Assembly (NCBI RefSeq): GCF_008087625.1
Contig: NZ_CP042997.1
Coordinates: forward strand, 7,192,001-7,256,000
Direction: 5' to 3'
DNA: 64,000 nt
Source of the DNA: Aquisphaera giovannonii
GTDB lineage: Bacteria; Planctomycetota; Planctomycetia; Isosphaerales; Isosphaeraceae
The translations under genes were made by a program, and so were the position numbers. The notes under the pieces are model-generated. The model searched no databases, was not told the origin of the DNA, and saw only the letters and a list, made by a program, of their open reading frames with translations. This document shows, in pieces, positions 11,833 to 32,500 of this stretch (positions within the stretch are counted from its first letter, which is position 1; every line of letters begins with the position of its first letter).

Positions 11833-12325
11833 GGTCGATGACTCCCGGGTGGTCGATGGCAGGATCGTGGGTCGAAGTGACGTGATCTTCGATGGACCTG
11901 CCCGGGGGTCGAGATCGCGACCCGATCGACCTGCCGGAGGCGGGCCCGCGGTCGCGACAGGGAACAAATCTCCGCCGACGCACGGCCGCGAGAGCCGGCC
12001 AGACGCGGCGCTCCCGCTCGATCTCCGGACTGTCGGCCGCCCCGTTGCAGGTGCGATCGTCTCGCATGCGCCATGATCCTCCCGATCCGGGCGCGGACGA
12101 TCCCCAGTCACGATCCTGCGAACCGCACGGGAACGTCACATTTCCGCTTCGATTTTTTTTCGTGCGAAAACCCATCCCTGGGTTTTCTCGGGCCAAGGCG
12201 GGATCGGCAAGGGGGTGGAAATGCCGCGTCCCCGAAGCATACGCACCTGGATGCTGCGCGTGGGTGAACCGACTCGGCAGCTCATCCGCGGCCGGCCTCC
12301 AGTCAGGACGGCCGCGGGCGAACGT
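11833..12325. other. gene-free region upstream of the 1983-aa beta-helix gene
   Basis: These 493 bp separate the two paralogous beta-helix genes, both on the minus strand. They hold a terminator-like hairpin at 12286-12317, an eight-T tract at 12153-12160, and next to it, on the minus strand, a GAAGCGGAAATGT element that has a near copy upstream of the other paralogue. No convincing coding frame. Confidence 0.5.
12286..12317 (-). terminator. terminator-like hairpin after the 1419-aa beta-helix gene
   Basis: CCGCGGCC (12286-12293) and GGCCGCGG (12310-12317) form an 8-bp stem with a 16-nt loop, 9 bp beyond the stop codon at 12326 on the minus strand. No U-tract. Confidence 0.35.
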
Positions 12326-15300: not shown

Positions 15301-16585
15301 TCACGTTGCCGGCGGTGTCCCTGGTGCCTCCTATCACGGTCCCGGCGCCTGCGGCGACGATGAGGCTGGTGGTGCCGCCGAAGCCGTTCACCCCGGCCGC
15401 GTCGGCGCCGATGGAGTTGCCCTGGACCCGGGTCCCGGTCGTCGTCGGGGAGGTCGCCGACGTGCCGATCGTCAGGCCGGTCAGCACGTTGCCCGAGGCG
15501 GGCTTGAGCCCGCCGATGACCGTGTTCGACGCCGACGAGACGAGCACCCCGCCGCCGGCGGTGAGGCGAGCGGTCCCCGAGAGGTTGGTCCCGACGTAGT
15601 TGCCCTGGAAGATGTTGTTCGGCCCGCCGATCGTCACCTCGTAGGAGCCCGAGCCGGCGATCACGTTCCGCTGCGCGGCCTTCGACCCGCCGATCAGGTT
15701 GTTACCCGCGCCGGCGACGACCATCGGCCCGGCGTTCGGCGTGAGCGAGCCGGCGGGGCTCAATCCGAGGAAATTCCCCTGGATAACATTCGCTCCTCCG
15801 CCGTGGACGTCGATCGGCGTCGCGAACGCGGTGATGGAAAGGCCCGTCACCGTGCTTCCCCCCGCGCTGATCACCAAGCCGGAAGACCCGGGAGAGAGAC
15901 GAGAACCGTCGAGCTGCACGAAGATCGCCGCATCCTCGCCCGTTGCGAGGCCGTTCGCCCGTGAGCCGGACTGCGTGTAGCCGTCGATCACCGTCGGGTG
16001 GGTGATCTCCGGCAGGGGGGTCAGAGGCTGGATCACGAACGGGCCCGTCCCCGGGATCGCAAACTGGATCACGTCCGGGGCCGTCGTGTTCGAAGCCGCC
16101 GCGATGATCAGGGCCTGGCGTAGGGATCCAACGCCGCTGTCCCCGGTGTTGGTGACCAGCTGCGTCTTGGCGTTGACCGAGATGACGACCGTGGCCAGGT
16201 TCGAGCCGCTACCGCCCCCGACCGCGACGTACGCGAAGCGATCAAGCCCCGTGTAGCCTCCCCTGGGCGTATACTGGAAGGACCCGTCTGCATTGAGCGC
16301 GACCGAGCCGTGGCCGGGCCCCGTCACGAGCGACGCGGAGAGCTGTCCGCCGTCGGACCTCGAGTCATTCGCCAGCACGCCCGGGGATGTGACGATGAGG
16401 GGCGTCTTCGCGTCGGTGTTGTAGGCGTCATCGACCGCCATGACCGTCGAGAGCAGCTCGCGCGACTCCAGCACCTGGAGCCGCCACTCCCGCAAGGCTG
16501 CCCACCCCGACCGACGGCGGGGACGGTCGCGACGCGTCGAGGTTCGCGAGGTCCGAGGCATCCACGACAGCTCACGGTGCAACAT
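12326..16585 (-). CDS. LEPR-XLL beta-helix surface protein, paralogue of the downstream gene
   Basis: The 1419-aa protein is colinear with the last two modules of the 1983-aa neighbour. An N-terminal LEPR-XLL variant, LESRELLS, sits at residues 39-46. It is followed at once by an Ig-like segment (AVDDAYNTDAKTPLIV), a SGVGSLRQALIIAA block, beta-helix turns (IQGNxIGTDATG / NTIGGTAAGAGN), a second Ig-like segment, another SLRQAILDADLAT block and more turns. The C-terminus, PAELALDLALDAQKRD, resembles that of the neighbour. ATG 16585 is preferred over the longer start at 16648 because AGGGGAG lies 9 bp upstream and because it places the LEPR-XLL motif at the same residue number as in the paralogue. 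Probably exported; partner and function unknown. Confidence 0.85.
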   Translation of the reverse strand: MLHRELSWMPRTSRTSTRRDRPRRRSGWAALREWRLQVLESRELLSTVMAVDDAYNTDAKTPLIVTSPGVLANDSRSDGGQLSASLVTGPGHGSVALNADGSFQYTPRGGYTGLDRFAYVAVGGGSGSNLATVVISVNAKTQLVTNTGDSGVGSLRQALIIAAASNTTAPDVIQFAIPGTGPFVIQPLTPLPEITHPTVIDGYTQSGSRANGLATGEDAAIFVQLDGSRLSPGSSGLVISAGGSTVTGLSITAFATPIDVHGGGANVIQGNFLGLSPAGSLTPNAGPMVVAGAGNNLIGGSKAAQRNVIAGSGSYEVTIGGPNNIFQGNYVGTNLSGTARLTAGGGVLVSSASNTVIGGLKPASGNVLTGLTIGTSATSPTTTGTRVQGNSIGADAAGVNGFGGTTSLIVAAGAGTVIGGTRDTAGNVIRDMVIGAGGSGTLIQGNAIGVDASGLRSLGSPGSGIVLDYSDHVTIGGTAAGAGNVISGNTRGYGIVGYYTFDASSILIQGNLIGTDATGMTASPNGWGGVRLSGGGNTIGGTGRNAGNVISGNGGAGLILDYGSSTALIQGNFIGSDASGLRPVGNAGDGIVIQGLDSNGNTIGGTAKGAGNVIAYNGGAGVGIPSGSDATGNAILSNAIFANVGLGIDLGDDGVTANTPGGPHDGPNLLQNAPVLLVAASRSNQVAIKGTLSSAPNATFTIQFFANGSADPSGNGEGQSYLGATTVTTDANGDASFQASFRAQPGSVISATATDQGGNTSEFAANQSIVVMTGKLLAQDDAYRTDANSPLLVGAPGVRANDLAFDGGAFSTNLVRGPGHGTLTITADGGFLYVPAPGYVGTDSFTYQDRLGNATALATVTITVASKTLVVTNTNDSGPGSLRQAILDADLATTDAPDTILFDLQGDGPFLIMPTSPLPAITHATIIDGYSQPGAMAATPGPGGSAVILVQLNGLAQPGGDGLLATAPGVVIRGLSFAGFATAIRLTGAGGDVVEGNFIGTDVTGTTADFGNNLGIYIESPNNTIGGTAAGAGNLVSGNWDVGILLDGPSASNNVIQGNRVGTDATGMTAVWNWSDGIALRSGASSNRIGGTEPGAGNILSGNAYGLSFAAGCAFNTVQGNLIGADATGQSAIGNMSGGIDDDGGDNLIGGTASGAGNVISGNWGSGLIVEFASRDVIQGNAIGTDVTGSLPIGNWGDGVTIRNFSSRNTIGGGDAGSGNTIAFNGGNGVTIGSFAGDLCYRNAVLSNVITGNLGLGIDLGSDGPGPIVPGGPYDGPNHFQNAPVIEAVVTDGVLIALTGTFSGPPATMLTLQFFVNDEADPTGFGQGQYYVGSATITTDADGNATFTVILPAAVSPGRNLSATATDANGNTSEFAADVAVNAAIQALAATGMQVADIIPAELALDLALDAQKRDGTAA

Positions 16586-17285
16586 CGTCGGTAACTCCCC
16601 TGGGATCGTCGCGTTCTTCTCGGCCCCTCTCGGCCGCTCAATTCGCATGCGACGGGCGGCCCATCGCCGGGCGAGCGGTGGTCAACGGCCACGGAGGAGT
16701 CGGGCTGGTTCCTTGCCCTCAACCCCCCCGTGACGCCCCGCCTCGGCCCGGACGCGCAATCTAGCCCACGGATTGCCGGTCCCAGCAACCGTAGAACAAA
16801 TCCCGACGCCGTGCGCATTCGTCGCAACATTTCGCTTCCGAAAGTTGGACGGAAACATCGATTCGTGCATCAGAGCCCAACAGGGCTCCGCTTCGACGTC
16901 GACGGTTGCCCGGGGATCGCCGACGGGGAAAGCCTGACGTGATCAATTGGAGCGGCGGCTCGGATCGGAGCGGAGACTTTAGCCCGGAGACATCTCGCAG
17001 CGGTCCTGCGACGCCGCGATGAGCGTCCGGCGGCCGGGCCGGAGCACGTCCTGACCGCCCTTTCGTGCGGATGCGGAGGGTCGATGGCCGTTCGGCGGCC
17101 GCGCGAGCCGCGAGCGGAACACGAGCCACGCTCGTTCCAGGCTACGGTCGCGCGATTTCGGGACCGTATAGGAAGGGATGCCGACCCGGGTGCGACGTCG
17201 GTGAGTGAGGGAGCAAGTTGAATGGAATGGGCGAAGGCGGATGCGCGTCCGGACCATCCGGGGAAGGCCGATCGTGCCGCGGCAA
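16586..17285. other. 700-bp gene-free region
   Basis: This lies between the beta-helix gene start and the stop of the threonine aldolase, both on the minus strand. A minus-strand element GGAAGCGAAATGTTGCGACG around 16820-16840 resembles one upstream of the other paralogue. The remaining sequence has short frames only, with no domain or signal peptide I can support. Confidence 0.5.
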
Positions 17286-18353
17286 TCAGTAGACCAGGGT
17301 CACCGCCGTGATCATGGCCGGTTCGATCTGGCGGATCACCTTCGCCGCGTACTCCGCGTCCTCGCGGCTCACGTCCAGGTGGGTGCAGGCCCGGACGACC
17401 TGGCCGCCCAGGGCCGAGAGCCGGATTCCGTGCGTCTTCAGGTAGGCGACGACCTCGGCGGCGGTGCCCAGCGAAGGATCCACGGTCACCCAGACGAGGT
17501 TCGTCTCGACCGGGCCGGACTCGAGCGAAAAGCCTTCGGTCGCGGAGAAGGCGTCCGCCAGGATCCTTGCATGTGCATGGTCATCGGCCAGCCGCTCGAC
17601 GTGATGGTCCAGCGCGTGGTGAGCCCCCGCCGCGATGAATCCCGCCTGACGCATGCCGCCGCCCAGGAGCTTGCGGACCGCTCGGGCCCGCTTGATCGTG
17701 TCCGCGGAGCCCGCCAGCGCCGAACCGACCGGCGCGCCGAGGCCCTTGGAGAAGCAGATGGAAACCGTGTCGAAGTGGCGGGCCCAGTCCGCGGCCGACG
17801 TCCCGGTGGCGACGACCGCGTTCATCAACCGGGCGCCATCGAGGTGCATCGCGAGCTGATTCTCGCGGGCCCAGTGCCGGATCGCCGCCACGCTCTCCAT
17901 CGTTTGGACCCGCCCGCCGCCCCGGTTGTGCGTGTTCTCCAGCCAGACGAGGCGGGTACGCGTGTAGTGGATGTCGTCCGGTCGGATCGCGTCCTCAATC
18001 TCTTCGAGCCGGAGTAGGCCGAGATCGCCGGGGAAGGTGCGGGCGGTGACGCCGGAATGCCGGGCGACGCCGCCGGCCTCCCAGACGTAGACGTGGGACG
18101 TCTCGGCGCAGAGGAGCTCGTCACCCGGCCTGGTGTGCACGGCCACGGCGATCTGGTTCGCCATGGTCCCCGACGGCACGAAGAGCGCCGCCTCCTTGCC
18201 CAGGAGCTCGGCGGTCCTCGCCTCGAGCGCGTTCACGCTCGGATCGTCGCCGTAGACGTCGTCCCCGACCGGGGCCTCCAGCATGGCCCGCTTCATCTCG
18301 GGCGTCGGTCGCGTGACGGTGTCGGACCTGAGGTCGATCGGCGGACGGTTCAT
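17286..18353 (-). CDS. ltaE: low-specificity L-threonine aldolase
   Basis: This is a 355-aa fold-type I PLP enzyme of the beta-eliminating lyase/threonine aldolase family. It opens with the family start DLRSDTVTRPTPEM, then GDDVYGDDPS and FVPSGTMANQIA. It has the cofactor-ring Asp in LDGAR (about Asp172) and the Schiff-base lysine in FSKGLGAPVG (Lys203). It cleaves L-threonine or allo-threonine to glycine and acetaldehyde, and the reverse reaction is possible. It lies 84 bp downstream of the sulfotransferase on the same strand as the NRPS genes. The two residues it interconverts, Gly and Thr, are exactly the two confidently predicted NRPS substrates. A role in precursor balance is therefore attractive, but ordinary housekeeping is equally possible. 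Confidence 0.92.
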   Translation of the reverse strand: MNRPPIDLRSDTVTRPTPEMKRAMLEAPVGDDVYGDDPSVNALEARTAELLGKEAALFVPSGTMANQIAVAVHTRPGDELLCAETSHVYVWEAGGVARHSGVTARTFPGDLGLLRLEEIEDAIRPDDIHYTRTRLVWLENTHNRGGGRVQTMESVAAIRHWARENQLAMHLDGARLMNAVVATGTSAADWARHFDTVSICFSKGLGAPVGSALAGSADTIKRARAVRKLLGGGMRQAGFIAAGAHHALDHHVERLADDHAHARILADAFSATEGFSLESGPVETNLVWVTVDPSLGTAAEVVAYLKTHGIRLSALGGQVVRACTHLDVSREDAEYAAKVIRQIEPAMITAVTLVY

Positions 18354-19602: not shown

Positions 19603-22600
19603 TCAGGGTCGGGAAACGGGCCGCATCCCGCATTCCTGGAGCAATCGGCCGGCGAGCTCGTCCACGCCAGGGGGGGTCAGCAGAGTCGCGTGGTCTCCCG
19701 TCACGTGGCGGACCTCGACGGAGCTGGCCAGCCCGATCCAGCCGAGCGTCTGATCCGACGCCTTGGACTTGCTCGCGCGGAAGAGGAGGACGTCGATCCC
19801 GTCGGGCTCCGGCCGATACCGCGACAGGGCGAGGAGGCTGGAGGCGAGCACCCGCCAGAGGCCCCGTGCCCGCTCCGGCCGAGTCCCCTCCCGGTAAACC
19901 GTGTCCAGGGCGAACAACTGGAGTGCCTCGTGGCGCTGGGCATCCGGCGGCAGGGCACTAAGGCGCTTCAGCAGCCGTCGCATCCCCAGGCCGCCTCCGC
20001 CGAGGTAAGCCAGGATCGTCGCCGCTCGCCGCGCGGCCTCCGCCTCGTCGTCCACGTCGAGCGCATCCCGGAACAAGGCGAGCTTCGCGGCCCTGGCGCC
20101 CAGGTCCAGGGTGGCCGCGTCGAGCCGGGGTGGGCCGGACGGGGCACCCGCGTCGATCATCACGAGCCGCTCGACGGCCTCGCCGGAATCGCGGAGGCGG
20201 CGGGCCATCTCGAAGGCGACGACTCCGCCCAGGGAGTAGCCCCCGAGCAGGTACGGGCCGCTCGGCTGCGTCTCGCGCAGGGCGCGGATGTAGCGGTCGG
20301 CCATCTCCTCGATCGTGGAGAGCGGGGACTCGCCCGGATTCAGCCCCGACGCCTGGAAGGCTTCCAGTCCCAGGTCCGGCCCCAGGCGCCGGGCCAGCTC
20401 CAGGAAGCAGTAGACCACACCCCCGGCCGGGTGGACGCAGAAGAAGCGCCGCGAGGCCCCTCCCGCGTGCAGCGAGACGATCGGCGATCCGGGCCGGCTC
20501 GGACGCGGGTCTCGCAGGGAGTCCGCAAGGCCCGCGATCGTTGGCGCGAGGAAGAGTGCCGAGAGGGGGAGCTCGCGGCCCAGCTCGGCCTCGATCCGGC
20601 TGAGCATCCGGATGGCGAGCAGCGAGTGGCCGCCCAGATCGAAGAAGCTCGCGTGCACGCCCACCGGTCGGACGCCAAGCTCCTCTTCCCAGATCGACGC
20701 GAGCTTCGCCTCGATCTCGTCGCGAGGTGCGGTGAATTCATCGCCCGCCGCCGGGGCCGCCACCTCGAGGTCCCGGGCGGCGAGCCGCCTCCGATCGACC
20801 TTGCCGGACGAGGTCAGCGGGAGCGAGTCCACGAGCGCGAACCGCGACGTGATCATGTATCGCGGCAGCCGCTCGCGGAGGAAGGCCGCGAAGGAGTCGG
20901 CCGTCGGCCCGCTGCCCTCGATCGCGACGACGTACGCCACGAGCCGGCTCGCCTGGCCCTCGCCGGCGACGGCGACCACGGCGGCGTCGCGGACCTCCGG
21001 ATGCTGGCGAAGCGCCGATTCGACCTCGCCGGGCTCGACGCGGAAACCCTGAACCTTGACCTGGATGTCGCGGCGGCCGACGAACGCGAGGCGGCCGTCA
21101 CCTCGCCACCTCACGAGGTCGCCGGTCCGGAACAGCCTCGCCCCAGGTCGCTTCGAAAAGGGATCGGGCACGAACCGGCGAGCCGTCTCTGCGGCGAGCC
21201 CGACGTATCCGCGGGCCACCCCCTCGCCTCCGATGTAAAGCTCGCCCGGGATGCCGAGCGGCACGGGTTGCATGCGATCGTCGAGCACGTACGCGGCCGT
21301 GTTCCGGATCGGCGAGCCGATGGGGATGTCGTCGTCCTCGTCTCTCGAGTCGGGACTTTCGAAGCCGGGATCGAAGGACGTGGCGATGACGGTGGCCTCG
21401 GTGGGCCCGTAGGTGTTGATCCACCGAATGCCATCGCGTGCCACCCGCCTCCATGCCCCCAGCGCAGAGGGCAAGGCTCGCTCGCCTCCGACGATCACGA
21501 GCCGCAGATGTCCTCCGGGCCCGCGACCTCTCCTCGCGAGATATTCGGTCCACGAATGCCAGTACGCGGTGGGCAGGTCCAGGACTGTGATGCCCCGCTC
21601 GGCGATCCAGTCCGTGAACGCCCTGGGGTCGAGCGTCTCGTCGCCGTCACGCAGGACGACACAGCCCCCGGCGAGCCATGTCGGGAAGAGTTCCTCCACG
21701 GCGATGTCGAAGTGGAGCGGCGAAAATTGCAGCACGCGATCCGCCGCCGCGATGGCGTACAGGTCCACGGCGGCCGTCGCGTGATTGACGACCGACCGGT
21801 GCGAGACGACCACGCCTCGCGGCGTGCCAGTCGAACCCGAGGTGAACAGGACGTAGGCCGCGTCCTCGGGCCCCCCTTCGTCCTCCAGGTTTTCGCCCAG
21901 GGTCCCGTCCACGCAGGCCCCGGCTCCTGCGGGGAAATCCACCGCAAGCACCTCAACCCCGTCCGGGACCGATTGGGCCTTCGATTCGCCGATCGATAGG
22001 AAGGTACGCGAGCCGCAATCCCGGAGCATCCGCGCCATGCGAACCGGCGACTCCTCCGGGTCGATCGGCAGGAAGGCCGACCCGGCCTTCAGGATCGCGA
22101 GGAGCGAGGTGACGGCGTCGACCGATCGCGAGGCCCGGAACGCCACGACATCCTCGCGGCCGATCCCGCGCGAGCGGAGCAGGCGCGCCAGTTGATTGGC
22201 ACGAGCGTTCAGCTCCCGGTACGAGAGCCGGGCGTAGCCCTGCTCGAGCGCCTCGGCATCGGGGAACCTTCGGGCGGAGTCCTCGATCAGGCGATGAAGG
22301 CGTTGGCATTCGGGCAGCGGCGCCGCAGTGGCGTTCCAATCGCGCAGCATCAGACTTCGCTCCGCGGCATCCGAGAGCGTCAACTCGGACACGCGGGCAT
22401 CGGGCGCGGTCACCGCCGACTCGAGGAGCCTGCCGAAGTGCCCGATCATCCGCTCGATCGTGGGGGCGTCGAACAGGTCGGCGTTGAACTCGATCGATCC
22501 GGACAGGTGGTCGCCGTCCTCGACCATGGCCAGGGTCAGGTCGAACTTCGCCGCGCCGGTGCCCTCGCCGACGTCGAGGGATCCGAGCGTCAGCTCGCGA

Positions 22601-25600
22601 CGAGAGGCGTCCGGCATGCGGTTATTCTGGAGCACGAACATCACGTCGAAGAGCGGCGTGCGGCTGGGGTCTCGCCGGGGCTGCAGCGCCTCGACGAGCC
22701 GGTCGAAGGGAAGCTCCTGATGCTCGAACGCCGCGATCGACGTGTCCCGCACTCGACGGACGAACGCGCGGAAGCCGGGGTCGTCGGCGAGCCGCGAGCG
22801 CATCACGATCATGTTCACGAAATACCCGACCAGGTCCTCGACCTCCGGACGGCCCCGATTGGCCACCGGCACGCCGACGGCGACGTCGTCCTGCCCGGTG
22901 TAGCGGGACAGCAGGGCCTGGAACCCGGCGAGGAGGGTCATGAACAGCGTGGCATCCTCGGCCTTCGCCAGCGACCGCAACGAAGCGGTGAGCGCCGCGG
23001 GGAGCTCGAAGAAGTGGACATCGCCGCGTGCGGTCCGCACCGCGGGACGGGGCCGATCGGTCGGGATCTGGAGGGGCGCGAGGCCGTCGAGCTCCTTCCT
23101 CCAGAAGGCGACGAGCCGATCGAGCCGGTCGCCGGCCAGCGAGGCACGCTGCCACGCCGCGTAGTCCGCGTACTGGATCGCCGGAGGGGGGAGCGGCGAC
23201 TCGCGGCCCTCGGTGAACGCCTCATAGATCGCCGCCAGCTCCTTCGCGGCGACGCCCATGGACCAGCCGTCGGTGACGATGTGGTGCATCGTCAGCAGGA
23301 CGACGTGTTCCCCCTCGCGGATGCGGATGAGGCGGGCCCGAACGAGCGGGCCCTTTGCGAGGTCGAAGGGCGTCCGGCCTTCCTCGATCGCGAGGCGGCG
23401 GGCAGCCTCGTGGCTTCCGTCCGGGGCGATGCCCTCCAGGTCGTCCACGGCGAGGGGCAGGTCCAGCAACGGCTCGATGAGCTGCACAGGCCGGCCGTCC
23501 ACGGCCGGGAACCTCGTGCGGAGGGATTCGTGCCGGGCGGCGATCTCGCGGAAGCTCCGACCCAGGGCCGCGACATCGAGCGGGCCGCGGATCGTGACCG
23601 CGGCGGTGACGTTGAAGGCGGGCGTGCCCGGCGACAGCCGGTCGAGGAACCAGAGGGCCTGCTGCGAGAATGACAGCGGGATCTCCCCGTCGCGCGGCGC
23701 CGTCGGGATGGGCGAGAGTCCCGCCGCGTGGCCAGCGGCCTGGAGTCGCTCCATCCTTCCCGCAAGGCCCCGGACGGTCGGGGCTTCGAAGAGGGCGCGG
23801 AGGGGGACGTCCAGCCCGGTCGCCTGGCGGAGCCTCGCGATCGCCTGGGCCGCCAGCAGCGAGTGGCCGCCGCGGAGGAAGAAGTTGTCCGATGCCCCGA
23901 TCGGCGAGCCGCCCAGCACGTCCCGCCAGACGGCGGCGACCTGCTCCTCCAGGGCGGTCGCGGGTGCGACGTATTCGGCCGGAGGCAACGCCGCCCCGTC
24001 GCCGGGTTCAGGCAGCGAGGCGGTGTCGAGCTTCCCGTTGGCCGTCAGCGGCAGCCGTTCGATCGAGACGAAGACGGCCGGTACCATGTAGTCCGGGAGC
24101 GTCGCCAGGAGCCGTTCGCGGAGCGACTCCGCCGACGGGGCCGACAAGGTCCGCGGCACGACGTACGCCGCCAGCCGTGCCTCCCCCTCGGGCCCCGGCA
24201 CGGCGACGACCGCGGCGTCGTGCAGCTCCGGTTGGCGGGCCAACGCCGCCTCGATCTCGCCCAGCTCGATGCGGAAGCCGCGGACCTTCACCTGGCGGTC
24301 CGATCGGCCGAGGTAGTCCAGCGAGCCGTCCCGGCGACGGCGGGCCAGGTCGCCGCTCCGGTAGAGCCGCGCGCCGGGCTTGCCGGAGAACGGATCGGGC
24401 ACGAACCGCTCGGCCGTCAGCCCGCTCCGGTTCAGGTAGCCGCGCGCCACGCCCTCCCCGCCGACGAAGATCTCGCCCACGGCGCCGGGCGGCACGGGCC
24501 GCAGGTTCGGGTCGAGCACGAACGTGCGCAGGTCGGGGATGGCCTCGCCGATCGGGCTGGAGCCGGCGTGCTCCTCCAGGTCCGAGCGGGTGATCGGCCG
24601 GTGCGTGACGTGCACGGTCGTCTCGGTGATGCCATACATGTTCACGAGCCTAGGACGCTCGTCGCCGTGGCGGTCGAACCATGGGCGGAGGGACTGGAGC
24701 TCCAGGGCCTCTCCGCCGAAGATCACGTGGCGGAGCGACAGGCCGGGACTGCCCGCGGCCTCGTCGGCGCGGATGAGCTGCCGGAAGGCGGAAGGCGTCT
24801 GATTCAGGACGGTCACGCCCTCGTCGCGCAGCAATTCGAGGAAGGAGTCCGGCGAGCGGCTCACCCAGTACGGCACGACGACGAGCCGGCCCCCGTGCAG
24901 GAGTGCGCCCCAGATCTCCCAGACCGAGAAGTCGAACGCGAAGGAGTGGAAGAGCGTCCACACGTCCGAACGTTCGAATCGGAACCAGTGCCTCGTCGCG
25001 GTGAAGAGCCGGTCCACGTTCGCGTGCGAGACGCCCACCCCCTTGGGCGTGCCGGTCGAGCCTGAGGTGTAGATGACGTACGCGAGTTGATCCGGCGATT
25101 CGAGGCCGGGGGCGTCCGCGGCCATCCTAATCTCGGGAGCTTCGTCCTCGAGGCTCAGCGGGACGACCATCCCATCGAAATCGGGGAAAGTCGCCTGGAG
25201 GCTGTCCTGGGTCAGCAGGGTCCGGGCGCCGGAGTCCTCGAGGACGAGTGCAAGCCGCTTGGCCGGGTAGACCGGGTCGAGCGGGAGATAGGCGCCGCCG
25301 GCCTTGAGGATGGCAAGGATGCCGACGATCATCTCCGGCGAACGCTCGGCGGCCAGGCCGACGAGCGATTCGGGGCCGACGCCCGCCGCGCGGAGCCGGC
25401 ACGCCAGGGCACTGGCGCGACGGTCGAGCTCGGAATAGGTGAGCGACCGGCCCTCGCAGGAGACGGCGACGGCATCGGGATGCGCCCGGGCCCGATCCTC
25501 GAACCGGCGGTGGAGAAGCCGGGGCGTCGGATCGACCGGCCTGTGGCCGGCCTGTAGCAGGGCGGCCAGGCGGGCACGACGGAGGTCGGCCTCGGTCGAG

Positions 25601-25653
25601 GTGCCCCCCCCGCCGGCCGGGGATGCCGGCCGGGAACGATCGGTGCTGGGCAT
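19603..25653 (-). CDS. non-ribosomal peptide synthetase, A-T-C-A-T-TE
   Basis: The 2016-aa protein contains A (about 45-550), T (Ser598 in LRGGHSLL), C (about 655-1095, HHIVTDG at 790-796), A (about 1120-1630), T (Ser1677 in DLGGHSLL) and a type I thioesterase (Ser1807 in GGYSLGG, His1988 in GDHATLL). The first A-domain pocket, read against GrsA positions, is D241 F242 W245 N284 I311 G313 M339 V347 H348 K541, the established threonine code DFWNIGMVHK. The second reads D1316 I1317 E1320 D1359 I1387 G1389 T1414 V1422 I1423 K1618 (DIEDIGTVIK), which I cannot assign; the Glu/Asp pair suggests a basic side chain. There is no epimerase, methyltransferase or MbtH domain. It starts 3 bp after the upstream NRPS stop (TGA-GCC-ATG), so the two are coupled. 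Confidence 0.95.
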   Translation of the reverse strand: MPSTDRSRPASPAGGGGTSTEADLRRARLAALLQAGHRPVDPTPRLLHRRFEDRARAHPDAVAVSCEGRSLTYSELDRRASALACRLRAAGVGPESLVGLAAERSPEMIVGILAILKAGGAYLPLDPVYPAKRLALVLEDSGARTLLTQDSLQATFPDFDGMVVPLSLEDEAPEIRMAADAPGLESPDQLAYVIYTSGSTGTPKGVGVSHANVDRLFTATRHWFRFERSDVWTLFHSFAFDFSVWEIWGALLHGGRLVVVPYWVSRSPDSFLELLRDEGVTVLNQTPSAFRQLIRADEAAGSPGLSLRHVIFGGEALELQSLRPWFDRHGDERPRLVNMYGITETTVHVTHRPITRSDLEEHAGSSPIGEAIPDLRTFVLDPNLRPVPPGAVGEIFVGGEGVARGYLNRSGLTAERFVPDPFSGKPGARLYRSGDLARRRRDGSLDYLGRSDRQVKVRGFRIELGEIEAALARQPELHDAAVVAVPGPEGEARLAAYVVPRTLSAPSAESLRERLLATLPDYMVPAVFVSIERLPLTANGKLDTASLPEPGDGAALPPAEYVAPATALEEQVAAVWRDVLGGSPIGASDNFFLRGGHSLLAAQAIARLRQATGLDVPLRALFEAPTVRGLAGRMERLQAAGHAAGLSPIPTAPRDGEIPLSFSQQALWFLDRLSPGTPAFNVTAAVTIRGPLDVAALGRSFREIAARHESLRTRFPAVDGRPVQLIEPLLDLPLAVDDLEGIAPDGSHEAARRLAIEEGRTPFDLAKGPLVRARLIRIREGEHVVLLTMHHIVTDGWSMGVAAKELAAIYEAFTEGRESPLPPPAIQYADYAAWQRASLAGDRLDRLVAFWRKELDGLAPLQIPTDRPRPAVRTARGDVHFFELPAALTASLRSLAKAEDATLFMTLLAGFQALLSRYTGQDDVAVGVPVANRGRPEVEDLVGYFVNMIVMRSRLADDPGFRAFVRRVRDTSIAAFEHQELPFDRLVEALQPRRDPSRTPLFDVMFVLQNNRMPDASRRELTLGSLDVGEGTGAAKFDLTLAMVEDGDHLSGSIEFNADLFDAPTIERMIGHFGRLLESAVTAPDARVSELTLSDAAERSLMLRDWNATAAPLPECQRLHRLIEDSARRFPDAEALEQGYARLSYRELNARANQLARLLRSRGIGREDVVAFRASRSVDAVTSLLAILKAGSAFLPIDPEESPVRMARMLRDCGSRTFLSIGESKAQSVPDGVEVLAVDFPAGAGACVDGTLGENLEDEGGPEDAAYVLFTSGSTGTPRGVVVSHRSVVNHATAAVDLYAIAAADRVLQFSPLHFDIAVEELFPTWLAGGCVVLRDGDETLDPRAFTDWIAERGITVLDLPTAYWHSWTEYLARRGRGPGGHLRLVIVGGERALPSALGAWRRVARDGIRWINTYGPTEATVIATSFDPGFESPDSRDEDDDIPIGSPIRNTAAYVLDDRMQPVPLGIPGELYIGGEGVARGYVGLAAETARRFVPDPFSKRPGARLFRTGDLVRWRGDGRLAFVGRRDIQVKVQGFRVEPGEVESALRQHPEVRDAAVVAVAGEGQASRLVAYVVAIEGSGPTADSFAAFLRERLPRYMITSRFALVDSLPLTSSGKVDRRRLAARDLEVAAPAAGDEFTAPRDEIEAKLASIWEEELGVRPVGVHASFFDLGGHSLLAIRMLSRIEAELGRELPLSALFLAPTIAGLADSLRDPRPSRPGSPIVSLHAGGASRRFFCVHPAGGVVYCFLELARRLGPDLGLEAFQASGLNPGESPLSTIEEMADRYIRALRETQPSGPYLLGGYSLGGVVAFEMARRLRDSGEAVERLVMIDAGAPSGPPRLDAATLDLGARAAKLALFRDALDVDDEAEAARRAATILAYLGGGGLGMRRLLKRLSALPPDAQRHEALQLFALDTVYREGTRPERARGLWRVLASSLLALSRYRPEPDGIDVLLFRASKSKASDQTLGWIGLASSVEVRHVTGDHATLLTPPGVDELAGRLLQECGMRPVSRP

Positions 25654-25656
25654 GGC

Positions 25657-28600
25657 TCAGGGCTCGAGTCGGTTCAGGAGGGCCTCGACTTCCTCGTCCG
25701 TGAGCGCATCGAGGTCGATGGCGGGTTGTGGCGGCGTCCCCAGGGCCCGGTCGCGATCCGCGTCCGAGACGATCGGCAGGGCGCCGATCGATCGCCCGGG
25801 ATCGTCCGAGATCCCTTCGAGGAGGACGGCCAGGCTGTCCAGGATCTGCTCGGCGGTCTCAGCGTCGAACAGGTCCGTGCTGTACTGGAGTTCGAGGCCC
25901 AGGCCGCGATCCGTCTCGGCCGCGAACAGGGCGAGGTCGAACTTGGCGGCCGGGTTCGGCGACTCCAGGGCGCTCACGCTCAGGCTTCGCGACGCGAAGT
26001 CGGGCCGCGGGGCGTCCTGAAGTGCGAAGAGCGCCTGGAAGACGGGCGAACGTGACGCGTTGCGGCCGGGCTCGATCGCCGCGACGATCCGATCGAACGG
26101 CAGGTCCTGGTGGGCGTAGGCGGCGAGCGCCGACTGCCGGACGCGGCGGAGCGCCTCGAGGAAACTCGGATCGCCATCCAGCCGAGCCCGGATCGCCAGC
26201 GTGTTCACGAAGAGGCCGATGAGCGGCTCTACCTCCGACCGGGTCCGGCCGGCGATCGGCGTGCCCACCGCGAAGTCGTGCTGGTTCGCGTAGCGGGAGA
26301 GCAGGACCTGGAAGGCCGTCATCAGGGTCATGTAGAGCGTGGCGTGCTCGCGACGGCCGAGGGCCTTCAGGTCGTCGAGCAGCGCCGCGGGGACGTGGAT
26401 GGAACGCGATCCGCCGCGGCCGCTCGGCGTTGAGGGCCGTGCACGGTCCGCGGGCAGGTCCAGGGGCGGTACGCCGCGGAGCTCCTCGACCCAGTATGCG
26501 AGCTGCGCCTCCGCACCCGAGGCCAGCCAGTCGCGCTGCCAGCGGGCGTAGTCCGTGTACTGGATCGGCAACTCCGGCAGGGGCGAAGGCCGACCCGCGG
26601 CGAAGGCGTCGTAGAGCAGGCAGGCCTCTCGCACCAGGATGCCCATCGACCAGCCGTCGGTGACGATGTGGTGGACCGTCACGAGGAGCACGTGCTCGCG
26701 ATCGCCGGTCTGGAGTAGCGCCACGCGGAGGAGCGGGCCGCGGGCCAGGTCGAACGGCCGGGCCGCTTCCTCATCCACGAGACGCCGCTGCTCGTCGGCT
26801 CGAATGTCCGCCGGCAGACTTCGCAGGTCGACCATCGGCAGCTCAACCAGTCCCATTTCCCCGACGACCGGGCGAGGCTCGCCCCCGTCATCCCGGAATG
26901 TCGCGCGGAGGACTTCATGGCGACGGACGATCTCCTCGAGGGCCGCCTGGAGCGCCTCTCGGTCGAGATCCCCATGGAGGGTGACGTTCGCCGGCATGTT
27001 GTAGGCGGGGCTAACGGGATCGAGTTGGTGCAGGAACCAGAGCCGCCGCTGGGCCGATGACGCCGGGAAGTCGGCCGTCGCGTCGCGTTGGATCGGTGTG
27101 GTCGCCTGACCCCTGCCCTCGCGGATTCGCGCGTCCACGCGACGGGCGAGTCCGGCGACGGTAGGGCCGTCGAGCAGATCGCGGACGGTGAGCTCCACGT
27201 CGAAGACGTCCCGCACGCGGGCGAGGGCCTGCGTCGCCAGCAGCGAGTGGCCGCCGGCCTCGAAGAAGTCATCCTCCGCGCCGATCCGATCCCGATGGAG
27301 GACCGCGCGCCAGATTTCGGCGATGCCCTCCTCGACCGGCCCCCTGGGAGGTACGGACGCGGAGGTGACGCCGTTGGCGTCCTCGCCCGGGTCGGGCAAC
27401 GCCCGGCGGTCCACCTTGCCGTTGGGCGTCAGGGGCAGGCTCGCCATCTCGACGAACGCGGACGGGATCATGTACTCCGGCAGCGACTGGAGGAGGTGCT
27501 TGCGTAGCGCCGGAGGGTCGAGCGTCCAGCCGTCGGCGGGGACGAGGTAAGCGACGAGCCTCATCGAGTCGCCGTAGCCCTCTCGCGCGGCGACGACGGC
27601 CTGGCGGATGGCCGGATGGCGTTCCAGGCGGGCCTCGATCTCGCCGAGCTCAATGCGGTGGCCGCGGACCTTCACCTGGTGGTCGAGGCGGCCGAGGCAT
27701 TCGAGGTCCCCGTCCTCTCGGCCTCGCACGAGGTCCCCGGTGCGGTACATCCTCGCGCCCGGGACGCCGCTGAACGGGTCGGGCAGGAAGCGCTCGGCGG
27801 TCAGGCCTGGCCGGTTGAGGTAGCCGCGTGCCAGCCCCACGCCGCCGATGAAGAGCTCCCCCGGCACGCCCGGCGGCACCGGCTCCAGCCGGGCGTCCAG
27901 GGCATGGAATTGGGTCTTCCGGATCGGCCGGCCGATCGAGATCGGCGACGGGCCGGGCCCGGCCCTCGCCACGGACGACCAGATCGTCGTCTCCGTCGGG
28001 CCGTAGAGGTTCCAGAGCGACTCGCCCTTGTCGAGCAGCCGGTCGGCCAGCTCGCGGGACAGGGCCTCCCCGCCGCAGAGCATCGCCATCCCGGGTGAGC
28101 CTTCCCACCCGGCGTCAAGCAGCATCCGCCAGGTGGAGGGCGTGGCCTGCATGAAGGTGTAGTCGCCCTTCTCGATCTCGTCCGCGAGCGCGAGGCCATC
28201 GCTCGACGTCGCCCGGCCGGCCAGGGTCACCCGTGCCCCCTGGATGAGCGGGAGGAAGATTTCCAGGGCGGCGATGTCGAACGAGAGCGTCGTGACGGCG
28301 AGCAGGTGATCGTCCGCCGTCATCCGGAACGTCCCGCGCATGGCGAACAGGAAGTTCGTCAGCGACCGGTGGGTGATCTCCACGCCCTTGGGAATGCCCG
28401 TCGAGCCAGATGTATAGATGACGTAGGCGCGATCGTCCGGCGATGGACCTCTCCCAGACGTCGCTCCGCCCGGCGTGCCGTGGATTTCGTCGATGGTCCG
28501 GACCCTGGCTCCGTCCGTCCGCACGAACTGGCGGAGCGGATCCTCGGTGACGATCAGCCTCATGGCCGAGTCTCGGACCATGTGATCCAGGCGATCGGCG

Positions 28601-28929
28601 GGAAAGTCGGGATCGAGGGGGACATAGGCCGCACCCGCCTTGAGGATGCCGAGCATCGCGGCGACCAGGTCCACAGAGCGGGCCGCCAGCAGGCCCACGA
28701 GAGACGCCGGGCCGACGCCATTATCGCGCAGGAGGGCCGCCAGTCGGTTGGCCCGCTCATCGAGCTCGCGATACGACAGCTCACGACCCTCGCAGACGAC
28801 CGCCGGGGCATCGGGCGTCTTCCTGGCTTGCAGCTCGAAGAGCCGCGTCACGGGGAGTTCCACGCCGACGCCCAAGAGCTTCTTGCCGAGCAGCCGCCTT
28901 TTCTGGTCTGCGGAGGAACTGGTCGTCAT
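25657..28929 (-). CDS. non-ribosomal peptide synthetase, initiating A-T-C
   Basis: The 1090-aa protein has A (about 25-510), T (Ser562 in EAGGHSLL) and C (about 620-1040, HHIVTDG at 753-759), with no condensation domain before the first A, as expected for an initiating module. The pocket reads D218 I219 L222 Q261 L284 G286 L308 I316 W317 K505 = DILQLGLIWK, the known glycine code. The C domain acts for the next module, whose A-T lies on the downstream gene, so the module is divided between two proteins. The C-terminus ends in an acidic helix LDALTDEEVEALLNRLEP that may be a docking element. No Shine-Dalgarno is well spaced before the ATG; AGGAG is 14 bp away. Confidence 0.95.
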   Translation of the reverse strand: MTTSSSADQKRRLLGKKLLGVGVELPVTRLFELQARKTPDAPAVVCEGRELSYRELDERANRLAALLRDNGVGPASLVGLLAARSVDLVAAMLGILKAGAAYVPLDPDFPADRLDHMVRDSAMRLIVTEDPLRQFVRTDGARVRTIDEIHGTPGGATSGRGPSPDDRAYVIYTSGSTGIPKGVEITHRSLTNFLFAMRGTFRMTADDHLLAVTTLSFDIAALEIFLPLIQGARVTLAGRATSSDGLALADEIEKGDYTFMQATPSTWRMLLDAGWEGSPGMAMLCGGEALSRELADRLLDKGESLWNLYGPTETTIWSSVARAGPGPSPISIGRPIRKTQFHALDARLEPVPPGVPGELFIGGVGLARGYLNRPGLTAERFLPDPFSGVPGARMYRTGDLVRGREDGDLECLGRLDHQVKVRGHRIELGEIEARLERHPAIRQAVVAAREGYGDSMRLVAYLVPADGWTLDPPALRKHLLQSLPEYMIPSAFVEMASLPLTPNGKVDRRALPDPGEDANGVTSASVPPRGPVEEGIAEIWRAVLHRDRIGAEDDFFEAGGHSLLATQALARVRDVFDVELTVRDLLDGPTVAGLARRVDARIREGRGQATTPIQRDATADFPASSAQRRLWFLHQLDPVSPAYNMPANVTLHGDLDREALQAALEEIVRRHEVLRATFRDDGGEPRPVVGEMGLVELPMVDLRSLPADIRADEQRRLVDEEAARPFDLARGPLLRVALLQTGDREHVLLVTVHHIVTDGWSMGILVREACLLYDAFAAGRPSPLPELPIQYTDYARWQRDWLASGAEAQLAYWVEELRGVPPLDLPADRARPSTPSGRGGSRSIHVPAALLDDLKALGRREHATLYMTLMTAFQVLLSRYANQHDFAVGTPIAGRTRSEVEPLIGLFVNTLAIRARLDGDPSFLEALRRVRQSALAAYAHQDLPFDRIVAAIEPGRNASRSPVFQALFALQDAPRPDFASRSLSVSALESPNPAAKFDLALFAAETDRGLGLELQYSTDLFDAETAEQILDSLAVLLEGISDDPGRSIGALPIVSDADRDRALGTPPQPAIDLDALTDEEVEALLNRLEP

Positions 28930-29212
28930 CGCTCGGTCGCTACTCCTGGGGCGGGTCGATTCCGATCCCTTCCGGGCGCGGCCGCGCTGGGCGAAGGGTG
29001 CTGCGATCGGCGTGCCGAAGTCCCGGCAGGCCGGAAGTCCCGTCGAGCCGGCCCGCGGGGGCCGCCCCGGTCGTTGGGCGGTAGGTTGCGCGGCCGCAGC
29101 TCAACGGGCGACCCGAGAGTTCACGCGACTAGGTCTCGCCCCAGTTCTGTGTCCAGGGGGATTGCCCAGGCAAGTCTCGAGTCGTCACGAAAGCCGACGC
29201 ATTCCGACGTCG

Positions 29213-29241
29213 AATATATTGCCCTTTCTTCGCATCTTCAA
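29213..29241 (-). promoter_or_regulatory. sigma-70-type promoter for the NRPS operon
   Basis: On the minus strand, TTGAAG (-35, 29241-29236) and TATATT (-10, 29218-29213) are spaced by exactly 17 bp in a conspicuously AT-rich patch. The predicted start of transcription is near 29206, giving a leader of about 275 nt before the ATG at 28929. Confidence 0.55.
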
Positions 29242-29311
29242 GCACCCCCCAGGTCGTTAGCCACGAAACTCGTTGTCATGACGTGGCTTATCCCCGGTCC
29301 GTCGCGGCCGG

Positions 29312-29377
29312 AAGGCGGCGATTCCGACGGCGAAGCGGGAGCACAAGGCGGCGATTCCGACGGCGAAGCGGGAGCAC
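29312..29377. repeat. perfect 33-bp tandem duplication
   Basis: Two adjacent identical 33-bp units (29312-29344 and 29345-29377), each beginning AAGGCGGCGATTCCGACGGC, lie about 70 bp upstream of the NRPS promoter -35 box. The unit is a multiple of three, but no real reading frame covers it. Confidence 0.9.
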
Positions 29378-29509
29378 TTTGCAGCGCGCGGATGACTGAC
29401 GAGGGGAGGACAACCGTGGCCGGGGTTGGCGGTCGTTATCGCTTCGTCATCCGGAACATCGGGGATGTCGCCGCCCCGACGCGGGTCCATACTTGCAAGC
29501 AATTGCCGA

Positions 29510-32500
29510 TCAGCCATCCGGAGCGAATGGCTCTTCCGGGAAGGCGAGACCGAGCGCCAGCAGGCGGAAATCCGGTCGATTTCGGACGGGGTCGAGTGCC
29601 CGATCCGACGCGACACGCCTCCGGTCCCGATGGCCCGCCATGAAGGCGCGGCGAAGCCATGCGATGGCGGCTTCGAGCTGTGCGAAACATTCATCGTCAG
29701 GCATGGCCGTGAAACCGATCGGCTTCTCCTCCGCCGCCTTTCCCATCTGGGAATGCACTCGAGCTTTCAGGTACCAGCACTCGGGGCTCGGTTCGGCGAG
29801 GCCGTCGAGCCGATCGAGGGCCGATCGGAGCAATCGCAGGCCCTCGGGGCGGTCGCCGGCGAGTGCGAGCCGGCCGAGGTCGGTCTCCAGGCTCGCCGCG
29901 AGCTCCTGATAATCCGGGTTCCTCGGCGCTTCGGATGCCAGGCGCCCTCCGACTGCCAGGCCCCGCTCGAGCAGTCGCCGGCATGCGTCGATCTCGCCCG
30001 CCCTCTCGTGCAGCAGGGCGAGCGGACGGCACGCGGCGGCGAGCCCATAGCGGTCCAGTGGCTTATCCGGCTGCTGCTTGAGGATCGCCTCCTTCAGTTC
30101 CATCGCCATCGCGAGCAACGGGGCGGCTTCGCGGTCGCGGCCTGCCAGCATGAGTCGGGTGCCGAGTTCGCCGCGAGACCAGGCGAACCGCGATCGGAGC
30201 TCCAGGTTGTCGGGGTCGGCTTTCAAGAGGGCGTCGTAGGTCCGGTCGGCTTCCTGCAGGTCCGCCAGGGCTTGGGGCTCGCGGCCGATCGCGGCGAGCA
30301 GGGCGCCGGAATTGATCAGGACCAGAGAGAGGCCGTCGCGATACCAGGCGACGGAGGGATCGGATCGCGCGAGCCCATCCCAGATTACGCGTGCTTCGCG
30401 GTAATTCTTCAGGGCGCGGGAGGTATGGCCGGTTCGCTGCAGCAGCCCCGCCAGGTCGTTCAGGCTATTGGCCAGGTCGGCCCGGAACTCGATCACGTCC
30501 GGGTGTGCGCCCGCCAGCTCGCGACGCAGCGAAACGGCCCGATCCAAGGCGGCGAGGGAGGCCGCGTTGCCGCCGAGCTCGGAATGGCGGCCGCCGAGGG
30601 AGTGGAAGGTCGAAGCCAGAGCCTGCCGGAACTGCGTGATCGCCGGGTTATCGGCGACGAGTCGTTCGAGGATATTCGCCGCCTCGCCGTAGGACACGAT
30701 CGCCTCGTCCAGCCTGCCGGTGTCCGACAGGACGTTGCCGATATTGTGGTGGCTCGACGCCAGCTCGCGCTGGAAGTTCGTGTCCCGGGGATGGGAGGAG
30801 ACGAGCCCGCGTCGTATCTCCAGGGCCTTACGGTGCGTCTCGAGCGCCTCGGCCTGTCGTCCGGTCTCGTTGTAGACGGCCGCGATGTTGTTCAGGCTCC
30901 AGGCCACGTCGCTGCGGAATCGCGTGACGGCGGGATACGCGTCGGAGAGCTTCCGCTCTATGGCGAGCGCCTGCTCGTAGGACGCTAGCTCCTCGTCCGA
31001 CTTGCCGAATCTGGAGAGCAGGAGGCCGATGCCGGTGAAGTTATGGGCCACCTCGGACTGGAACCTGGCGGCGTCGGGATGCGTCCGAGCCAGCTCTCGC
31101 CGGATCGCCAGCGATTCGCGATATTCCGCGAGGGCTTCGACGTGCTTGCCGGCCTCGACGAGAGCGTTGGCGATGTTGTCGTGGCTGGTCGCTCGGCCGC
31201 TCTGATACTCGTCGTTCCCGGGATGGGCACGATCCAGGTCCCTCCAGTCCTCCAGTGCCCTACGATACCTCGCCAGGGCCGCAGTCGGATCGCCGGTCCG
31301 CAGGAGCACCCAGCCCAGGGCACTCTGGCTGACGGCGTCGACGGCGAGACGCCGCTCCGAGTCGGGCCGGCTTGGGCCGGCGTACCCCGCCAGCGAGCAG
31401 GCTTCCTCGAACGCGGACTTCGCCCCGGTCGGATCCCCCGTGACTTCTCGGAGCTTGCCGACGGCGACGAGCGAGTTCGCCAGGTCGACCCGGCCCTCGA
31501 GGCCAGCCACCGGTCCGGCCGCCAGCTCGCGGCGGATCTCCACGGCCCGCTCGAGCAACGCGAGCGCCTCCGGCTTGTCGCCGATCCGCTCGGTGAGGTC
31601 TCCCAACTCCTCATAAGCGCCGGCGAGCGACGCACGCGAGGACCGGTCGGGCTGGCTCTCCAGCAGCCTCCCGATCTTGCCATAGAATTCGGCCGCGCCA
31701 CGGAGCAGCTTGTTCCGCAACGCATCGAATTGCTTCTCCTTGAGAAGCAGGTCCGCGCTCACCTCTCCATGGAAAAGGCGGATCGCCCCCATCGCCAACG
31801 CGAACCGTTCCCGCTCGCGCCTGTTCGCGGCATCCAGGTTCGAGTTGGCGACCCGCAAGTCGTTATTGGCCTTGGTCTGGACTGCAAGGACGGCCGCGGT
31901 CGCTGCGAAGGAGACCAGCAGGGCGGCGACCCCGGCGGCAACCGCGGTGCGATGCCGGCGTGCCCATCGCCGGGCGGCCTGCCAGGCCGGCTCGCGATAG
32001 GCCGTCACCGGCGAGTCCGCCATCCACCGCTCCACGTCCTCAGCCAGTGCCCTCGGCGTGGGGTAGCGGTCCTCGGGCCGAGCCGCCATCGCCTTCAGGC
32101 AGACGGCCTCGAGAGCGCGGTCGATGGCCGGGTCGATCCGCCGGGGCGCCGGGAATTCGGCCGCCCGGGCGGCGCGGAGCATCGCGGCGACGCTGTCCCC
32201 CTCGATCGGCGGGCGGCCCGTCAGCAGGCAGAAGAGGGTCGCGCCGAGGCCGAAGACGTCGGACGCCGGGCCCAGTCGGTCGAGGTCGCCGGAGGCCTGC
32301 TCGGGGCCCATGAAGGCCGGAGTGCCGACGACCGAGCCGGGGAGCGTCTCGGCGCTCCCGCTGGCCGACGAAGGCACCAGGCACTCCTCGCCGGTCCCCT
32401 CCCCATCCGGGCCGCGGCCGATCGGCTTGGCCAGTCCCCAGTCGACCACGAGGGTCTCGCCGTGCCGGCCCACGATCACGTTGCCCGGCTTGATGTCGCG

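Follow-up and report, generated by a model that had tools for sequence, protein, structure and literature searches.

A two-gene nonribosomal peptide synthetase of Aquisphaera giovannonii as the possible back half of a split, sulfotransferase-linked lipopeptide assembly line

Introduction

Several described nonribosomal peptide synthetases (NRPSs) resemble parts of a compact two-gene line found in a 64,000-nucleotide stretch of the planctomycete Aquisphaera giovannonii (hereafter the window; C1:7,192,001-7,256,000 of a 10.5 Mb genome in three contigs). The sulfazecin NRPS distributes three modules over two proteins, SulI and SulM. The first of these has 1089 residues and holds module 1, and a sulfotransferase, SulN, is encoded in the cluster (PMC11298585). 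In the bacillibactin synthetase DhbF a Gly module precedes a Thr module and a thioesterase (TE) stands at the end (PMC4169593). The myxochelin synthetase MxcG loads L-lysine (PMC8400222), acylates both Lys amines and ends in a reductase, and in the viscosin/massetolide systems of Pseudomonas parts of a single line are unlinked, with viscA more than 1.5 Mb from viscB and viscC (PMC3039948).

The line in the window resembles the sulfazecin system in spreading three modules over two proteins and in including a sulfotransferase gene, but its TE nucleophile is a Ser (GYSLG) instead of a Cys within a Gln-Cys-Asn motif, and the code of its last adenylation (A) domain is Lys-like where sulfazecin has 2,3-diaminopropionate (Dap). 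With DhbF it shares the order Gly then Thr, an identical Thr code, a near-identical Gly code and the final TE; it differs in the Lys-like module that follows Thr, in the absence of a starter condensation (C) domain for an aryl acid and in the presence of the sulfotransferase. The third A code agrees with that of MxcG at eight of ten positions, whereas the whole domains are only 40% identical. Compared with the viscosin/massetolide systems, it belongs to another phylum, would begin with a part containing a polyketide synthase (PKS), and is associated with a sulfotransferase and a PvdE/MacAB-type exporter, and its joint product is predicted from genes.

Here we propose, at a probability of about one half, that the window encodes the last three modules (Gly, Thr and Lys) and the release TE of a lipopeptide assembly line whose front half lies elsewhere on the same chromosome. 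Judged from sequence, this appears the most likely reading in view of the co-occurrence of release-less fronts with starter-less backs, a related genome in which the module order is the union of the two, the N-terminal helix of gene 1, the C-domain tree, the confinement of all six C-domain places of the genome to two loci, the linkage of the sulfotransferase, and a phosphopantetheinyl transferase (PPTase) gene near the front locus. The window's own genome is G000, G001 is a congener, and the comparison set comprises 45 genomes of the same order, cited under G, L and C labels.

The NRPS genes of the window

The line and its adjoining sulfotransferase gene are laid out as follows, with T denoting a carrier domain and residues assigned by A-domain code:

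25657..28929, minus strand: gene 1, NRPS A(Gly, DILQLGLIWK)-T-C, 1090 aa
19603..25653, minus strand: gene 2, NRPS A(Thr, DFWNIGMVHK)-T-C-A(Lys-like, DIEDIGTVIK)-T-TE, 2016 aa
18438..19580, minus strand: sulfotransferase gene, PF13469 (Sulfotransfer_3), 380 aa

The first-pass annotation of this DNA had described two coupled genes of the order A-T-C / A-T-C-A-T-TE (a slash marks a protein boundary), and this layout is upheld. The genes are 3 bases apart (junction TGA-GCC-ATG), and Pfam detects, all above curated cut-offs, AMP-binding, AMP-binding_C, PP-binding and Condensation in gene 1, and two AMP-binding, two PP-binding, one Condensation and one Thioesterase domain in gene 2. The carrier serines (562, 598 and 1677) and both HHxxxDG motifs, likewise reported at first pass, are intact; the latter read HHIVTDG at position 753 in gene 1 and 790 in gene 2, and the TE has its nucleophile motif, GYSLG, at 1805. 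By Pfam and motifs, the pair holds all the parts of a modular NRPS: A, T and C domains with their catalytic motifs, plus a release domain. The same architecture, with near-identical codes, recurs in the stretches L117, L118 and L125 (the start of gene 1 is missing from L125), at 56-75% identity for gene 1 and 51-77% for segments of gene 2, and chance is therefore excluded. In the gene 1 copies of G009 (L118:8038-11490) and G008 (L125:1-2892) the motif reads HHIVTDA instead of HHxxxDG, with both His and the Asp kept. Since Pfam finds a single condensation-type domain per gene in the window, an epimerisation domain is not evident and the residues of the Gly, Thr and Lys modules should be L. A contig scan matched gene 2 to at least 80 loci at 38-49% identity; among the 80 listed none was planctomycete by title, and only the Myxococcus genome behind L045 was drawn on further.

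The A-domain codes (A1 to A3 in the order listed) were read by alignment, the ten positions being set by motif anchors with GrsA numbering; the position list is given in PMC12283262. The DhbF codes of Paenibacillus larvae, stated to be identical to those of B. subtilis DhbF, are DILQVGLIWK for Gly and DFWNIGMVHK for Thr (PMC4169593). A2 is identical to the Thr code of DhbF2 and A1 is one position off the Gly code of DhbF1, which agrees with the original assignment of the first two domains; the prediction that modules 1 and 2 load Gly and Thr is well grounded. The third residue, initially left as X, is probably basic, with Lys as first choice. The MxcG orthologue of the Myxococcus genome behind L045 (above the curated cut-off) gives DAEDIGTVVK by the same procedure. 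Whole-domain identity to MxcG is 40% for A3 and 37-38% for A1 and A2, and the Lys assignment therefore rests on the code. Section 11 of PMC12283262 lists a Lys code, DGEDHGTVVK, and also an Arg pattern, and by hand count A3 agrees with each at seven of ten positions. Neither DIEDIGTVIK nor a close variant was found in the literature searched.

A release-less front locus on the same chromosome

A search of G000 for C domains returned six places, two in the window and four at C1:4.411-4.422 Mb, within a second locus of the same chromosome that extends from C1:4,404,578 to about 4,428,200. By Pfam and codes, its first protein is AMP-ligase(FAAL-type)-KS-AT-KR-carrier-C-A(Orn)-T-C (KS, ketosynthase; AT, acyltransferase; KR, ketoreductase), the FAAL-type label being given by position and a DIP2-like tail. 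It is followed by A(Gly)-T-C / A(Asp)-T-C and then by a PvdE-type ABC exporter and relatives of MacA and MacB. Neither a terminal module nor a TE turned up at this locus, and there is no space for such a module because the PvdE-type gene overlaps the Asp gene by 4 bp; the corresponding genes abut in G001 and are about 40 bp apart in G008 (C618) and G009 (C59). G000 holds a starter locus without a release domain and a release-domain locus without a starter, the arrangement expected of a split line. Seven PF00975 matches occur in G000, four of them above the cut-off. The TE of gene 2 is the strongest and, of those inspected, the only one whose protein also has C and A domains; the second (77.7 bits) is on an FkbH-like/carrier/TE protein of contig C2, and the other two above the cut-off score 29-30 bits. 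Of two PPTase frames (PF01648) in G000, the larger one (260 aa) is some 25 kb away from the front locus. The C2 protein (L179:8129-11158, on a contig of 131,698 bases) has 1009 residues and was read as FkbH-like, carrier and thioesterase by eye and from one PF00975 match; the genome search placed no C domain on C2.

The same two loci are present in G001 by domain models. In G008 C618 and G009 C59 an (Orn) / Gly line, its start cut by the contig end and its Orn code unreadable in G008, ends at a C domain and is followed by a PvdE-type exporter (TIGR01194, above cut-off), MacA and MacB, and both genomes have a separate Gly / Thr-Lys-TE locus with a sulfotransferase. For each of the 19 genomes that match gene 1 at 1e-100, at least one NRPS locus was taken, though not every contig; among the loci taken, C-ending lines followed by an exporter co-occur with a starter-less Gly / Thr-Lys-TE back half in four of four genomes (G000, G001, G008 and G009). 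No relative of the PvdE/MacA/MacB exporter was detected at 1e-30 in the window, L117, L118 or L125, and there is no NRPS match upstream of gene 1 in G000 or G001. Lines with other codes in G032 (C145) and G009 (C111), in which a one-sequence TE model finds no TE, were not counted as belonging to this type. In L128:4578-16037 and its relatives the Orn module is followed by a highly divergent C domain (low score, long branch), perhaps of a different stereochemical type, in which case the Orn would be D-configured.

Contiguous relatives

The two halves appear to be combined in G006. Its contigs C221 and C253 share a terminal overlap of 69 bases (68 identical) and carry complementary parts of one A(Thr) domain; joined, they read Orn / Gly / Thr-Lys-TE / PvdE-type / MacA / MacB / sulfotransferase. 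This is the union of front and back, and Orn precedes a Gly module of the gene 1 type. G013 was dropped as a second contiguous example. There, C544 (FAAL-type..Orn / Asp..Gly-C) overlaps C400 (C-Thr-T-C) by 48 identical bases, a join that is not secure because these bases sit in a C-domain repeat that C400 carries at its opposite end as well; another contig closes with ..C / Thr-Lys-TE, then a sulfotransferase; and C400 and C291 are not directly adjacent, since their C-domain ends are only 77% identical (240/312).

Contiguous lines with homologous Gly and Lys-coded modules occur in G019 (Orn / Gly / Asp-Lys), G017 (FAAL-type..C / Gly / Asp / Gly-Lys), G016, which reads likewise from its first C domain on, and G018, of which the last part is seen. 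The FAAL-type start is present in G017 and partly in G019. They differ from the line of the window in having Asp or Gly before Lys, no close sulfotransferase orthologue and a PigE-like C-terminal domain instead of a TE. The exporter gene lies directly behind the terminal protein in G006, G016, G018 and G019 (PvdE-type in these four) and also in G008 C119, whereas in G037 the distance is 2.1 kb. In each of the four split genomes a C-ending protein occupies the position ahead of the exporter. The terminal domain of the G016-G019 lines and of G008 C119 (L169/L170) has about 410 residues (L119:16905-18227 and L120:16453-17649, also L121 and L127). The two copies scanned, from G016 and G019, have no Pfam match at 0.01 and match PigE weakly, and one copy matches PDB 9e4s/9e4x (1e-100); the domain probably serves for reductive release, where other lines have a TE.

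The ends of gene 1 and the C-domain tree

Gene 1 has an acceptor-like N-terminal helix (DQKRRLLGKKLL) and a donor-like C-terminal tail (DLDALTDEEVEALLNRLEP). That it begins with an A domain does not mark it as an initiation protein, because related NRPS proteins are mostly cut A-T-C / A-T-C and the internal proteins of related lines normally begin with A. The helix, of the form xEQKRxLLxxLL, was found on all ten A-starting proteins directly after the first NRPS protein seen (G000, G001, G006, G008, G009, G013, G016, G017, G019 and G037; in five of these lines the start of the first protein is not seen), on the three gene 1 copies with their start present (window, L117 and L118), and on none of six FAAL-type starters (G000, G001, G008 C119, G013, G017 and G037). 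Only its presence is informative, because at least eight internal proteins are without it (the Asp proteins of G000, G001, G016 and G017, and the terminal proteins of G016-G019). The pattern missed visibly similar segments in gene 2 of G013 and the post-starter protein of G008 C119, and in G000 and G001 the gene 1 helix has a changed second half. A rule that the C-terminal tail occurs only where the next protein has the helix holds for the two loci of G000 and G001 but not in G016, G017 and G019, and was set aside as evidence. In the tree of C domains, those of gene 1 are recovered as a clade (99/97), nested in a 16-row group that holds internal Gly, Asp and Thr modules (86/87). Those of gene 2 fall together with the domains ahead of the terminal module in G016-G019 and G037 (98/99). 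The deeper tree is unsure, as the Orn C domains have long branches.

These results bear on the product first proposed for the locus, a Gly-Thr-X tripeptide. Its Gly and Thr stand and X can be proposed as Lys, but a peptide of three residues with Gly first is not established: an A start is normal for internal proteins, gene 1 has a helix of the internal type, Orn precedes Gly in G006, and a release-less front line lies elsewhere in the genome.

The linked sulfotransferase

The sulfotransferase gene beside the NRPS genes, overlooked at first pass, lies 22 bp from the end of gene 2 and belongs to the NRPS locus. Its product scores 133.3 bits against a cut-off of 27 (PF13469) and has the motifs HYRSGTT (83) and RFVHIRRDPYTVYRS (221), which we take to be binding motifs for 3'-phosphoadenosine-5'-phosphosulfate (PAPS). 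Matches at 1e-40 occur in 13 of the 45 genomes of the order, and six proteins stand apart from the rest, at 529.7 bits or more (five at 63-75% identity and the window's own) against at most 389.2 bits for the remainder. They come from G000, G001, G006, G008, G009 and G013, in each of which the gene is on an NRPS contig. The same six genomes are the best of the 45 for the Lys-T-TE end of gene 2 (at least 766.9 bits), followed by G019 at 581.3 bits with a match that stops at residue 603 of 905 (17 or 20 candidates were scored per genome in the gene 1 and Lys-T-TE-end searches). The gene adjoins the NRPS genes in G000, G001, G008 and G013. In G009 it is divergent and precedes gene 1 by about 0.5 kb, and in G006 it comes after the exporter genes, roughly 5 kb away from gene 2. 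An 11-residue insertion is absent from the six NRPS-linked proteins and present in the three others aligned, out of ten other matches.

Each of these six proteins is encoded beside a Thr module. No close orthologue was found in genomes with Thr-less lines: G016 and G018 have no match at 1e-40, G017 has one weak match, and G019 has one sulfotransferase at about 52%, with no NRPS domain within the 20 kb taken around it. Because the close sulfotransferase and the Thr module go together, Thr is the likely sulfation target, but the association may reflect a single evolutionary event. In a sample of the phylum the sulfotransferase was found in one of 392 genomes, its own, a weak negative given that at most four candidates were scored per genome. 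About 7-10 kb from the sulfotransferase gene of G009, a stand-alone A-T protein followed by a cytochrome P450 (L152:9882-13083) possibly represents another small amino-acid-modifying pathway.

One line or two

If the two loci form one line, the FAAL/PKS part would start an acyl chain to which Orn, Gly and Asp would be added at the front locus. The peptidyl chain would then move in trans, by docking, from the last front C domain to gene 1; Gly, Thr and Lys would be added by gene 1 and gene 2; and the sulfotransferase would sulfate the Thr hydroxyl. Release by the TE would give an acyl-Orn-Gly-Asp-Gly-Thr(SO3)-Lys lipopeptide, linear or cyclic, that the PvdE/MacA/MacB exporter would secrete. For unlinked parts of a working line, viscosin is the precedent (PMC3039948). 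We suggest, more tentatively and at well under even odds, that the halves, 2.8 Mb apart, make a sulfated lipopeptide in which sulfated Thr replaces the Asp that sister lines have near Lys (near the Lys end in G019, one module further on in G016 and G017), and that the back half may also start by itself and yield a tripeptide.

A number of points weigh against a joint line. Transfer between the two loci is a prediction, and the four split cases come from two genera and may reflect two events or fewer. The fronts are unlike: Asp is present in those of G000 and G001 but not in those of G008 and G009, which run past the contig ends at their start. In the tree, the front Gly modules of G008 and G009 have C domains outside the 16-row group; and the lines at G032 C145 and G009 C111 are also without a TE by the one-sequence model. 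Helices are not strictly paired, as the chain-accepting internal Asp and Gly-Lys proteins of G016-G019 have none, and the helix and tail of gene 1 could be ancestral leftovers. The joint register is a guess, since the residue orders of G006 and G013 differ. G008 and G009 hold other NRPS lines with release domains of their own, the genome-wide TE search covering G000 only, and the terminal C domain could itself release the front-half product. Finally, an initiation module of 1089 residues has a precedent in the sulfazecin system (PMC11298585).

The last of these points also favours the most serious alternative, a stand-alone initiation-elongation-termination line making a small sulfated Gly-Thr-Lys (monoisotopic mass 304.17, plus 79.96 with sulfate, by hand calculation), with the sulfate most likely on Thr and an independent front locus released by its last C domain. 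Three A, three T and two C domains with one TE are a complete set for a tripeptide; the region 5' of gene 1 has no NRPS match in G000 and G001 and holds the sulfotransferase gene in G009; and the four-gene block of the window is differently oriented to its neighbours in G001, as a self-contained unit would be. This reading is possible but less likely, because under it the front lines of four genomes have no release domain and the window and its three counterpart stretches have no exporter relative, and it sits poorly with the internal-type helix and with Orn before the same Gly in G006. A decaying remnant of a longer, once one-piece line that now makes nothing is improbable. Flanking order does differ between the congeners, and both have a gene 1 helix that is changed in its second half, but the motifs that were checked remain intact and the frames stay open across two genera, the Ala that ends the gene 1 HHxxxDG motif in G008 and G009 notwithstanding.

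Two further readings, each very unlikely, take their cue from known products. A monobactam-like pathway, in which the sulfotransferase would N-sulfonate the terminal residue and the TE close a beta-lactam as in sulfazecin, would suit a tripeptide-sized line with modules split one plus two over two proteins and a sulfotransferase in the cluster. It is largely refuted by the Ser nucleophile of the TE, the criterion being Cys in Gln-Cys-Asn (PMC11298585), and is at odds with the Lys-like third code; no Dap-synthesis gene was found among the 21 of 37 listed open reading frames of the window scanned with Pfam. The shared codes and the Gly-then-Thr order of DhbF (PMC4169593) would fit an iterative, bacillibactin-like line joining Gly-Thr units as oligo-esters via Thr. 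Gene 1 begins with A and has no starter C domain for an aryl acid (no search was made for dihydroxybenzoate genes), and Thr is the penultimate and not the terminal module, on which ground the product was dropped. A hydroxamate siderophore was also rejected, no Lys/Orn N-oxygenase match being present in G000.

Read locus by locus, as cluster-finding programs do, G000 would seem to hold two separate lines, one complete and making a tripeptide, the other incomplete and making a lipopeptide; if the loci form one line, both structure predictions would be wrong, and the order would offer a natural set of contiguous and split systems for testing docking and module relocation. The linkage of a sulfotransferase to NRPS genes in six genomes of a single order would also suggest that sulfated peptides form a family there. 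The literature excerpts searched describe no NRPS product from a planctomycete that is both characterised and associated with a sulfotransferase, and the only match to sulfotransferase, planctomycete and nonribosomal jointly concerns lanthipeptides. The main text of a 2025 review of planctomycete metabolites (PMC12078418) has no words beginning NRPS, non-ribosomal, lipopeptide or sulfo, and a comparison of Isosphaeraceae (PMC5352709) reports PKS and terpene clusters.

Neighbouring genes

Two further features adjoin the line:

28930..29509, minus strand: region 5' of gene 1, presumed operon promoter, by position only
17286..18353, minus strand: gene for a threonine-aldolase-like pyridoxal phosphate (PLP) enzyme, NCBIfam GntG family and low-specificity L-threonine aldolase, both above cut-off

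The aldolase-like gene stands next to the sulfotransferase gene in G000 and G001 only (88% identity), and no match to its product was found at 1e-10 in the stretches L118, L125, L149, L150 and L152; the enzyme is a putative pathway member with a candidate role only. A Ser/Thr kinase with TPR repeats is encoded directly upstream of gene 1 (29510-33304) and is probably outside the pathway, since nothing in the G001 stretches matches it better than a kinase-type hit of 26%. Elsewhere in the window are genes for DUF1559 proteins, which accord with a planctomycete origin, and, downstream at 5881-16648, two large surface-type proteins with cadherin/Big_9 domains. The block of gene 1, gene 2, sulfotransferase and aldolase keeps its order in G001 while relatives of these cadherin-type proteins lie on its opposite side, which suggests that the four genes move as a unit and that either the block or its neighbours have been inverted or moved.

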